From Bradyrhizobium uaiense (lineage in GTDB: Bacteria; Pseudomonadota; Alphaproteobacteria; Rhizobiales; Xanthobacteraceae): 64,000 bases of DNA. Location: assembly GCF_010811875.1 (NCBI RefSeq), contig NZ_VKHP01000013.1, forward strand, positions 1 to 64,000, in the 5' to 3' direction. A program made the position numbers and the translations under genes. Below, one piece after another: positions 27,564-31,506 of the stretch. The notes under the pieces are model-generated. The model had not been told where the DNA came from and made no database searches. It saw nothing but the letters and a program-made list of their open reading frames with translations. Within the stretch, counting starts at the first letter, position 1. Every line of letters starts with the position of its first letter.

Positions 27564-28418
27564 ATGACCCCTTCCCGCGATATTTCCCGCCTGATCGAGA
27601 TCATGGCTGCGCTGCGCACGCCGGTGAGCGGCTGCCCGTGGGATCTCGTGCAGAATTTCGAGACCATCGCGCCCTACACGATCGAGGAGGCCTACGAGGT
27701 CGCCGACGCGATCACGCGCGGCGATCTCGACGATCTGCGCGAGGAGCTCGGCGATCTCCTGTTGCAGGTGGTCTATCACGCAAGGATGGCGGAGGAGCAG
27801 AACGCGTTTGCGTTCGGCGATGTGGTCGAGGCGATCACGAAAAAGATGATCCGCCGTCACCCGCACGTCTTTGCCGACAAGGACGGCAACATCCAGCCCG
27901 CCGGCGTCAAGAGCGCGTGGGAGCGCATCAAGGCCGAGGAAAAAGCCGAGCGCGCCGCGCGGCGGCCGCCGGAGGACACTGCGCATACTTCGCTGCTGGC
28001 GAGCGTGAAGGCCGGCCTCCCTGCCCTGACGCGGGCGATGGAATTGCAGCGCAAGGCATCGACCGTCGGCTTCGACTGGAACGATCCGCGCGCGGTGCTC
28101 GCCAAGATCCGCGAGGAAGCCGACGAGATCGAGGCCGCGCTCGACCGCAACGACAAGCAGGAGATCGCGGAAGAGACCGGCGATCTCATGTTCGCGCTGG
28201 TCAACCTCGCCCGCCACGTCGACGCCGATCCGGAAACCGCGCTGCGCGCCACCAACGCCAAGTTCGAGCGACGCTTTGCCTATATCGAGAAGGCGCTGGC
28301 CGCGAAGGGCCGCTCGCTCGACGGCGCGTCGCTCGAAGAGATGGATGCGCTGTGGAATGAGGCGAAGATGGCAAATGAAGCCGTCGTCCCGGCGAAGGCC
28401 GGGACCCATACCGCGTGA
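27564..28418 (+). CDS. mazG: nucleoside triphosphate pyrophosphohydrolase
   Basis: This 284-residue all-alpha NTP pyrophosphatase has two MazG domains. The first covers residues about 5-115 (CPWDLVQNFETIAPYTIEEAYE and EELGDLLLQVVYHA). The second covers about 160-265 (KIREEADEIEAAL and EETGDLMFALVNLARH). It hydrolyses non-canonical or excess NTPs. The last residues VVPAKAGTHTA are encoded by one arm of a REP-like palindrome (28383-28410), so the natural C-terminus has been replaced or extended by the repeat. The divergent neighbour is queC. Confidence 0.95.
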   Translation: MTPSRDISRLIEIMAALRTPVSGCPWDLVQNFETIAPYTIEEAYEVADAITRGDLDDLREELGDLLLQVVYHARMAEEQNAFAFGDVVEAITKKMIRRHPHVFADKDGNIQPAGVKSAWERIKAEEKAERAARRPPEDTAHTSLLASVKAGLPALTRAMELQRKASTVGFDWNDPRAVLAKIREEADEIEAALDRNDKQEIAEETGDLMFALVNLARHVDADPETALRATNAKFERRFAYIEKALAAKGRSLDGASLEEMDALWNEAKMANEAVVPAKAGTHTA

Positions 28419-28544
28419 TCTATCGGTTGGTTGACGGTATCAGTCCCGCGCGAGTGATCGACGGACGAAGTTGCAATTCGGAACTGCGATCGAGCGCAAT
28501 AACAACGGCCGGTGGTTATGGGTCCCGGCCTTCGCCGGGACGAC
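28383..28544. repeat. REP-like element with perfect 28-base inverted arms
   Basis: Arms at 28383-28410 and 28517-28544 are exact reverse complements over 28 bases. Each arm is itself a hairpin (CCCGGC-GAAG-GCCGGG) next to GACGAC. The left arm lies within the mazG reading frame and supplies its last codons. It shares vocabulary with 15026-15130. It lies between convergent mazG and mgtE and could terminate both. Confidence 0.85.
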
Positions 28545-28590
28545 AGTGAGTTTGTGGACGCAGTCGCCTCAAATCGCGCAGCCCCTCCTC

Positions 28591-29961
28591 CTACAACAGC
28601 GTGCCGCGCAGGATCACCGCCGCAACGCCGAAATAGATCACGAGGCCGGTGACGTCGACCAGCGTCGCGACGAACGGCGCGGAGGCGCTGGCCGGATCGA
28701 AGCCGATGCGCTTGAGGATGAACGGCAGCATCGAGCCGCACAGCGATCCGAAGGTGACGATGCCGATCAGCGCGGCGCCGACGGTGACGGCCACCAGCAA
28801 CCAATGCGGGCCGTAATCGAACAGGCCCAGCGTCTGCCAGACGGTGATCCTGACAATGCCGATCAGGCCGAGGATGGAGCCGAGCACGATACCTGTCGGT
28901 AGCTCGCGCACGGCGACCCGCCACCAGTCTCGCAGCCGCACCTCGTGCAGCGCCAGCGAACGGATCAGCAGCGAGGTTGCCTGCGAGCCGGAATTGCCGC
29001 CGGAGCTCATGATCAGCGGAATGAACAGGGTCAGGACGATCGCCTTCTCGAGCTCGCTCTGGTACGACTGCATTGCGGTGGCGGTCAGCATTTCCGACAG
29101 GAACAGCGCGCACAGCCAGCCGGCGCGCTTCTTGATCATCTCGCTGAAACCGATCCGCAGATAAGGCTCGTCGATCGCTTCCATGCCGCCGAACTTCTGG
29201 GCGTCCTCGGTCGATTCCTCGACGATGGCGTCGATGACGTCGTCGACCGTGACAATGCCAAGGATGTGCCCTGGGCCGTCGACCACCGCAACCGCGAGCA
29301 GATCGTAGCGCGAGATCAGCCGCGCCGCCTCCATGCGATCGGCTTCGGGCGCAATCATCAGCGGCTTTCGCGCCGGTGCCGCGGTCAGCACGTTGGCATG
29401 AGGATCGGCCGAGATCAGCCGGCGCAGCGGCACGGCCTGGATCAAGGTCTTCTTGATCGGGTCGATCACGAAGATCGAGTAGACGGTCTCGCGGGTGCGC
29501 TCGACCATCCGGATGTGATGCAGGACCTCGGCGATGGTCCAGCTCGAGGGCACGCTGACGAACTCCGTCGTCATGATGCTGCCGGCGCTGCGTTCGGGAT
29601 AGGCCAGCAGCCCCGAGATGACGTTCCGGGTATCCGGGTTGAGGCCGTTCAGCAGCGTCGTGCGCAGCGGCTCGACCAGCTCCTTGAAGATGTCGGCGGC
29701 ACGGTCGTCGGAGACGCCCGATAGCAGCGACACCGCGGTGTCCTTCGGCAGCTCGGCCAGGATCTCGCAGGTGTTGTCGAGCCCGGGCAGGTCGAGCACC
29801 TCGATCGCCTTCTCGGCGGGCAAGGACCGCAGCAGCTGCGCGGCATCGGCCGGCTCCCGGGCATTGAGCGCATCGACGATCTCGGGCGCCCGGGCATGGG
29901 CAAGATCACCGTTCTGGCCGGCGAGCGTGTCGTGGGGGATGGTGTTGCTGGTGTCCTGCAT
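28591..29961 (-). CDS. mgtE: magnesium transporter MgtE
   Basis: This 456-residue protein has the full MgtE layout. The N-terminal helical domain covers residues about 15-130, with repeated acidic motifs that sense Mg. A CBS pair covers about 135-260 (GSIMTTEFVSVPSSWTIAE, ILGIVTVDDVIDAI). A five-helix membrane domain starts near 285, with the signature IPLIMSSGGNSGSQATSLLI and PFVATLVDVTGLVIYF. It is a gated Mg channel of the inner membrane. The gene stands alone between mazG and hflX. Confidence 0.95.
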   Translation of the reverse strand: MQDTSNTIPHDTLAGQNGDLAHARAPEIVDALNAREPADAAQLLRSLPAEKAIEVLDLPGLDNTCEILAELPKDTAVSLLSGVSDDRAADIFKELVEPLRTTLLNGLNPDTRNVISGLLAYPERSAGSIMTTEFVSVPSSWTIAEVLHHIRMVERTRETVYSIFVIDPIKKTLIQAVPLRRLISADPHANVLTAAPARKPLMIAPEADRMEAARLISRYDLLAVAVVDGPGHILGIVTVDDVIDAIVEESTEDAQKFGGMEAIDEPYLRIGFSEMIKKRAGWLCALFLSEMLTATAMQSYQSELEKAIVLTLFIPLIMSSGGNSGSQATSLLIRSLALHEVRLRDWWRVAVRELPTGIVLGSILGLIGIVRITVWQTLGLFDYGPHWLLVAVTVGAALIGIVTFGSLCGSMLPFILKRIGFDPASASAPFVATLVDVTGLVIYFGVAAVILRGTLL

Positions 29962-30031
29962 CGATCGGCCTCGGCTTTGCGTCCAGCAGCGCAATGAACC
30001 AAGGCGGCGCAGATTTCAAACAGAAAGCGCA

Positions 30032-30054
30032 CCGGCACGTCGCAGCCGTGCCGG
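30032..30054 (-). terminator. hairpin downstream of hflX
   Basis: CCGGCACG and CGTGCCGG form an 8-base stem with a 7-base loop, about 60 bases after the hflX stop. There is no T-run, so the call is weak. Confidence 0.35.
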
Positions 30055-30111
30055 AGTGAGGCCACGTCACAGCGTCGTCATATTTGGTTGCGCGGCGCCG
30101 CGCCGAAGGGT

Positions 30112-31506
30112 TTACGCCTCGAGGGGCACCGCGGCGAACCGGCTCACCACGATGTCGCGCTTGGTCTCGTCGACGCGCACTGTCATATCGAAGCGCTCGC
30201 CTTGCAGTTCCTTGTTCAGGACCTCAGCATTACGGTGCAGCCAGCTGATGCCGGCACCGTCGGAGGCGTCGATCGAGAGCCGCAGGGTCATGCGCTTGGC
30301 CGCGAGGCGATCCTCAATTGCTGACAGCAGCGCGTCGATCCCCTCGCCGGTCGCGGCCGAGACGAGGAAGCAGGGCCGCTCCGGCGGGCGGCGCGCGGCG
30401 ATATTGCGCAGATTGTCCCGCTCCTCGGGATCGAAGCGGTCGATCTTGTTCCAGACCTCGATGATGCGCTGGCCGCCATCGGCGTCGGGATCGATGCCAA
30501 GCTGGCGCAGCACGCCCTCGACGTCGCGCTCCTGCGCCTCGGCATCCTCATGCGAGATGTCGCGGACATGCAGGATGATGTCGGCCTCCAGAACCTCCTC
30601 CAGCGTGGCGCGGAACGCGGCCACCAGCTGGGTCGGCAGGTTGGAGATGAAGCCGACGGTGTCGGACAGCATCGCCTTGCCGCCATGCGGCAGGTTGAGC
30701 GCACGCAGGGTCGGGTCGAGCGTCGCAAACAACATGTCGGCGGCCTGCACGTCGGCGCGCGTCAGGCGGTTGAACAGGGTCGACTTGCCGGCGTTGGTGT
30801 AGCCGACCAGCGCCACCACGCGGTACGGCACGCGCTGGCGGCCGGCGCGATGCAGCCGTCGCGTCGCCTGCACCTTCTTCAATTCGCCTTCGAGCTTGGT
30901 GATGCGCTCGCTGATCAGGCGGCGGTCGGCCTCGATCTGGGTTTCGCCAGGTCCGCCCATGAAGCCGAAGCCGCCGCGCTGGCGCTCGAGATGGGTCCAG
31001 GAGCGCACCAGGCGGCTGCGCTGATAATTCAGATGGGCGAGCTCGACCTGCAGCGCGCCCTCCTTGGTCTTGGCGCGGCGGCCGAAGATTTCCAGGATCA
31101 GGCCGGTGCGGTCGAGCACCTTGGTGCTCCAGGCCTTCTCGAGGTTGCGCTGCTGGATCGGCGACAGCGCGCAATCCATCACCACGAGCTCGACCATGTT
31201 GCCGGCGACGAGGCCGTTGATCTCCTCGACCTTGCCCTTGCCGAGATAGGTGGCAGGCCGGATCTGATTGATCGGCGCGATGATGGATTCCACCACGGTG
31301 AGGTCGATCGCACCGGCAAGGCCGGCGGCCTCCTCGATTCGCGCTTCATAGTCGCGGACAGAGGGATCCGTTTGCGCATCGCCGTCGCCCCGGCGCGTGC
31401 GCAGGTACGGGCCGATGACGATCACCCGCCCGCTGCTGCCGTCCCCAGCCGACCCGGGCCTAGACTTGGTCCGGTCGGCGCCCCCTTCACGGTTGAAGGG
31501 TTCCAA
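30112..31506 (-). CDS. hflX: ribosome-associated GTPase HflX
   Basis: This 464-residue GTPase acts on stalled or dissociating ribosomes. It has the N-terminal HflX domain ([12 protein letters not shown], then [16 protein letters not shown]), the glycine-rich linker [18 protein letters not shown], and the G domain with G1 [15 protein letters not shown] (G3) and NKID (G4). The start appears to be TTG at 31506, 11 bases after hfq. The first 27 residues are low complexity, and a GTG start at residue 28 is an alternative. The hfq-hflX order is common in proteobacteria. Confidence 0.94.

Follow-up and report, generated by a model that had tools for sequence, protein, structure and literature searches.

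The mazG gene in the analysed stretch of Bradyrhizobium uaiense DNA (the window; 64,000 nucleotides, contig NZ_VKHP01000013.1) runs into a dimer of CGTC-tagged REP elements, and to judge from the sequence the first arm of this dimer is read as protein, with its frame kept. The REP superfamily is known; mazG is a new, well-resolved example of a protein end that is coded by a repeat. The comparison of mazG among relatives suggests that this end was probably obtained by capture of a REP rather than by the landing of one.

The mazG gene and the REP dimer at its 3' end

The mazG gene occupies positions 27,564–28,418 of the forward strand (284 codons followed by TGA) and was assigned as an NTP pyrophosphohydrolase from its ORF, profile and structure alignment. 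The product is a full MazG, scoring 363.4 bits against NF007113 at a cut-off of 208. The MazG family profiles and two solved MazG chains (3cra and 3crc) align only up to residues 267–269, so residues 270–284 are extra. In the predicted structure, which is poor overall (mean pLDDT 51.7), residues 271–284 are placed after the last helix (257–270) and belong, like the N-terminus, to the least confident parts. Behind a conserved EAK, a linker of 15 nt (28,368–28,382, forward strand) codes for MANEA and leads to the REP head, where the repeat-derived tail and its stop codon begin (28,383–28,418, forward strand; TGA at 28,416–28,418). The earlier note had the repeat arm running in frame through the last mazG codons, and position 28,383 is indeed a codon start in the ORF from the ATG at 27,564, since (28383-27564)/3 = 273. 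The codons GTC GTC CCG GCG AAG GCC GGG ACC CAT ACC GCG TGA give VVPAKAGTHTA*, of which VVPAKAGTH is coded by the REP arm; the spacer behind it contributes the codons for TA and the TGA.

The first REP arm covers 28,383–28,410 (forward strand, core 28,385–28,408) and is translated; the second, at 28,517–28,544 (reverse strand, core 28,519–28,542), is not translated as part of mazG. They form the perfect inverted repeat described earlier, with 100% complementarity over 28 nt and 106 nt between them. The spacer that separates both units (28,411–28,516, forward strand) begins with ACCGCGTGATCT and holds the mazG stop codon, a TGA 6 nt past the first arm. The unit reads CGTC-CCGGCGAAGGCCGG-GACCCA and is joined by its inverted copy with the CGTC ends pointing outward; CGTC is found at 28,385–28,388 and again in the reverse copy. 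The stem-loop GTCCCGGC-GAAG-GCCGGGAC, with an 8-bp stem and a 4-nt loop, is followed by CCA. The whole dimer folds as a single long RNA hairpin of -99 kcal/mol (z -7.9), a stability that was equalled by none of 200 shuffles.

Several identities of the repeat were considered and rejected. At up to three mismatches the window holds two copies of the core CGTCCCGGNNNNNNCCGGGACCCA, against 0.21 expected, and none of 100 shuffles had two; together with the core copies across the genome this rules out a chance palindrome. The sole Rfam match at E ≤ 1 was MIR918 (28,381–28,546, reverse strand), which at 28.5 bits against a gathering threshold of 268 is a chance match to a long hairpin. An intrinsic terminator with a T-run was not found in 28,300–28,700. 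A RAYT-driven element (a REPIN or a RAYT-mobilised REP) disagrees with the end, which is CGTC rather than GTAG, and with the absence of a Y1_Tnp match in the host genome.

Across the dimer lies the convergent neighbour mgtE (28,591–29,994, reverse strand), assigned to its family by profile. It sits, within 28,591–31,506, between mazG and the next ORF, which we take to be hflX. In several relatives outside the clade described below, mazG is followed by an hflX-like ORF or first by a gene for a GNAT acetyltransferase (L056). As an uncounted impression, genes on the 3' side of mazG seem to be exchanged frequently.

The REP family across the host genome

The core followed by CCCA or TCCA has 90 mismatch-free copies in the host genome and none in a reversed control, which marks the element as dispersed and bears out its earlier description as REP-like. 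A sister type with the stem CCCTGC/GCAGGG contributes 55 mismatch-free cores, and a further CCTGG REP type is also present. Counted by eye, 30 neighbouring pairs occur among the 90 cores, each in plus-then-minus order with CGTC outward, and a script that pairs only this orientation found 44 dimers in 68 sampled elements. At 110 host heads the letters C, G, T and C reach 98, 98, 97 and 97%, values that are partly circular because the selection pattern itself contains CGTC. The search for a transposase of the Y1_Tnp class (RAYT-type) gave no match in the host genome and matches in 5 of 14 control genomes. Mismatch-free cores also lie 98–214 nt from the starts of eight contigs (C411, C465, C474, C517, C536, C610, C794 and C1230), which suggests that the REP repeats break the host assembly.

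The gene ends next to these elements were surveyed in 57 stretches around hits at up to four mismatches, with a codon score trained on 140 ORFs of the same DNA; several hits at contig edges were left out, as was the larger part of the 55 sister-type sites. The 68 elements have 112 outward sides, of which 57 face the 3' end of a gene and 10 a 5' end, another 6 being contig edges and 39 undecided. At 56 of the 57 scored gene ends the first base of the stop codon lies 8–92 nt before the CGTC head, and only mazG reads into the REP, although further cases are possible among the 39 undecided sides. Genes that read into REPs are apparently unusual in this host.

The CGTC-tagged REP superfamily occurs in alphaproteobacteria (Di Nocera et al. 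2013, PMC3733652). In the available text of that paper its members are described by a CGTC (or TGTC/CCTC) end, a stem of 8–9 bp, a loop of 4–5 nt and a CCA tail; they are present in high copy number, mainly as inverted dimers downstream of genes, and lack a dedicated flanking transposase gene. The mazG repeat shares the CGTC end, the 8-bp stem, the 4-nt loop, the CCA tail and the occurrence as dimers and, also in view of its copy number, its position and the missing Y1_Tnp gene, belongs to this superfamily. Going by the published text alone for the sub-family number, it is probably of the CGTC-1 group.

Distribution of the tail among relatives

The mazG set comprises 110 loci of the genus, taken from the best 80 of 582 candidates and from the best 30 of 260 genomes that gave a match, and represents the closest relatives only; dropping 13 duplicates left 97 distinct coding sequences. 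Of these, 27 read into a REP head, 23 have one 4–24 nt past the stop, and 47 have none nearby. Tails of the VVPAKAGTHTA type are present in 22 of the 97 sequences (18 identical, 4 with one residue changed), all inside one 31-member clade with support of 100/99 in a tree whose bootstrap had not fully settled. The same tail in all relatives, which the earlier note had set against its own reading, is not what was found. At mazG in this clade two stem types occur, CCCGGC/GCCGGG with GAAG and CCCTGC/GCAGGG with GAAA. In the VVPAKAGTH frame all differences between them fall on third codon positions, and inspection of the opposite-strand frame, WVPAFAGTT, shows the same. This synonymy is possibly a matter of palindrome geometry.

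Nine of the 31 clade members have kept mazG without the tail. In L024 only the first REP bases remain before a deletion, and its linker is also 6 nt. L117 ends at a stop of its own, and another REP follows after 4 nt; its distance of 22 nt from EAK to the REP is not a multiple of three, and that stop comes earlier. No REP is present in the other seven (L017, L021, L098, L102, L106, L109 and L110), where mgtE lies 744–2020 nt from mazG or is absent from the stretch (L109), compared with 111–225 nt in most sequences with the tail. L017, the sister of the window sequence, ends in EAKRAT* and has a replaced flank with an ORF of metallo-beta-lactamase fold, and the insert before mgtE in L021 holds an ORF with only a sub-threshold SMP-30-like score. 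Strains lacking the element, which the earlier note had proposed to look for, were thus found, but a clean empty site was not found among the clade members without a REP because their mazG–mgtE gap is long or replaced. No sequenced capture intermediate was found among the mazG sequences.

Outside the clade, a REP head lies exactly 7 nt past the gene's own stop in 18 of 66 sequences, which corresponds to 12 nt on the scale of the host survey, counted from the first base of the stop to CGTC. The remaining heads behind the stop are located at 6 nt (one), 20 nt (two) and 24 nt (one), and 40 of the 66 sequences have no REP near the mazG stop. In the sister group of four (clade plus sisters 100/92), L031 and L034 carry the REP at 7 nt and L023 and L084 have none near the stop. 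A REP at this address is accordingly older than the clade, or recurrent. Four outside sequences (L026, L029, L030 and L079) read into other REP subtypes. These have longer loops and are read in a different frame, giving tails that end in ...SEARAGTHTAESRD and ...SSRPSEQRER; they are probable independent captures, and the dispensable tail of MazG has seemingly been replaced by a REP more than once.

The REPs at 6–7 nt from the stop, found in 19 sequences (L031, L034, L047, L048, L050–L054, L057, L061, L063, L064, L066, L072, L076, L078, L081 and L082), fall into at least five sequence classes, set by author-defined patterns, with at least ten type changes on the tree. This looks like turnover of content at a fixed address, by conversion among dispersed copies or by repeated re-insertion. 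Two kinds of sequence evidence for a single address were rejected. The 6-nt flank before the REP is TCCGCC in L097, identical to the outgroup consensus and close to the generic host flank CCCGCC; the likeness of the clade consensus ACCGCT to the outgroup is reached by 16% of host copies (5% for L097, 2% for L116), and the flank discriminates poorly. The spacer subtype CATACCGCGTGAT occurs at mazG in the outgroups L047 and L053 and a different spacer in the sister L031, and this subtype is weak proof of a shared address since the L053 genome has 43 copies of it.

Conservation of the reading frame

The linkers between EAK and the REP in the 22 sequences with the tail measure 15 nt (eleven), 6 nt (eight), 21 nt (two) and 3 nt (one). 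All 22 are multiples of three, despite at least eight length changes on the tree (8–10 on 200 bootstrap trees). Past the TGA, the spacer is 74–101 nt long in the 18 sequences where it is measurable (one, L010, includes a run of N); the remainders 0, 1 and 2 occur in 4, 5 and 9 cases, with at least ten changes. Eight successive changes by a multiple of three have a chance of about 1 in 6,500 if changes are independent and free, and parsimony changes are taken as independent in this test; with just the four distinct linker lengths counted it rises to about 1 in 27 (~0.04). Read in either of the other frames, the tails would be 12–94 codons long, against a constant 11. The translated arm is without indel in 22 of 22 sequences and its untranslated partner is intact in 17 and damaged or missing in 5 (Fisher p 0.048), a comparison that is conditioned on sequences having the first arm and is weak alone. 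The keeping of the frame by the linkers supports translation and identifies the spacer TGA as the real mazG stop. It also upholds the earlier claim that the repeat supplies the C-terminus of MazG, with the refinement that the TGA lies in the spacer.

Possible origins of the tail

The explanation that we favour, and regard as fairly probable, is capture of a resident REP dimer as the MazG tail through loss of the stop in the ancestor of one clade. A CGTC-type dimer, of the kind that usually lies just past stop codons, would already have been present at the mazG 3' end. The ancestor of the clade (31 of the 97 sequences) would have lost the short, fast-changing natural tail together with the stop codon, after which translation would enter the first REP arm and end at the TGA of the spacer, giving EAK-(1–7 residues)-VVPAKAGTHTA. 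The new tail would probably be mostly neutral, and its frame would be retained since the spacer TGA is now the mazG stop. We infer that the captured REP has the same address as the REP resident in the outgroups, and that the junction was made by deletion, not insertion. Given the 18 of 66 outside sequences with a REP 7 nt past the stop, a fresh insertion would call for more assumptions than the capture of a REP already next to the gene, and the host gene ends that stop 8–92 nt before a head represent the position from which stop loss would capture a REP. In the earlier note a mobile element had landed at the end of a gene and was translated; the frame test sustains the translation, and the landing is weakened by these same 18 sequences.

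Direct insertion, in which the clade ancestor received a mobile REP dimer by transposition into the last mazG codons and with it the stop, appears rather unlikely. It would suit a dispersed family with 90 and 55 mismatch-free cores, REPs within genes have been published (in the available text of PMC3733652), and the clade linkers have no clear match to the outgroup flank. Other subtypes are moreover read in frame in L026/L029/L030 and in L079, and the lack of a REP at the site in two of the four sisters and in 40 of the 66 outside sequences makes repeated insertion at this spot possible. However, a second event would be needed where 18 of 66 outgroup sequences already hold a REP 7 nt past the stop. 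Of the 57 scored host gene ends a single one has a REP in frame, and neither a RAYT-type (Y1_Tnp) gene in the host genome nor a clean empty site was found.

Domestication, compatible with either route of origin, would mean that the peptide or the in-frame hairpin is useful and selected. The frame-preserving linkers, the 18 identical tails among 22 with a single change in the other 4, and the synonymy of the two stem types in the tail frame agree with this. We nevertheless consider it improbable: 9 of 31 clade members retain mazG without the tail, the genus has many versions of the natural tail, which is hypervariable, the synonymy may come from palindrome geometry, and the need for a stop codon explains the keeping of the frame. 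A more elaborate adaptive scheme, which seems less probable still, starts from a fixed address with swapped REPs and proposes that the in-frame move freed mazG from ribosome stalling, so that the tail is an adaptive regulatory change. In E. coli, REPs less than 16 nt from the stop reduce translation, according to the available text of PMC12306157. The outgroup REP at 7 nt is within this range and the captured REP outside it; by analogy this may affect mazG. Finally, that the hairpin is a terminator and transcripts end before the TGA, so that the tail is never made, would fit the very stable fold and the place of the dimer between convergent genes but is very improbable, given that a T-run terminator was not found in 28,300–28,700 and that an untranslated stretch would not keep the reading frame of its linkers.

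Relation to known systems and implications

The main text of PMC3733652 contains no occurrence of MazG (its supplementary gene lists are outside this count); what the mazG case adds to that text is a phylogeny for a single captured tail, a test of the reading frame and the route through stop loss. As described there, RPE-4 and RPE-6 are the CGTC-4 and CGTC-1 elements of R. conorii and, like the mazG REP, are palindromes translated within proteins. Unlike these Rickettsia elements, the mazG REP codes for the extreme C-terminus, where the dimer provides the stop, and reading into the element is exceptional in its host (1 of 57 scored gene ends). The GTAG REPs of the same paper also supply stops to flanking ORFs, but there the GTAG end gives a TAG, whereas the TGA of mazG stands in the spacer, behind an arm that is translated in full. 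Br-REP1 and Br-REP2 of B. japonicum USDA 110, in the available text of PMC5082802, are likewise 3'-UTR repeats between convergent genes, with different sequences. A search by titles and the beginnings of abstracts, with most subscription papers outside its coverage, found no paper on MazG tails derived from REPs.

The mazG case allows two routes from repeat to protein to be told apart, namely a repeat that jumps into a gene and one that is swallowed when a neighbouring stop is lost. With a REP at most 92 nt from the stop at 56 of 57 scored host gene ends, the capture route needs no transposition, and it could account for part of the published C-terminal REP 'insertions'. The genus offers a natural series, in which mazG has its own stop followed by a REP, has the REP as its tail, or has lost the REP, and this series is suited to measuring how a hairpin close to the stop affects translation.
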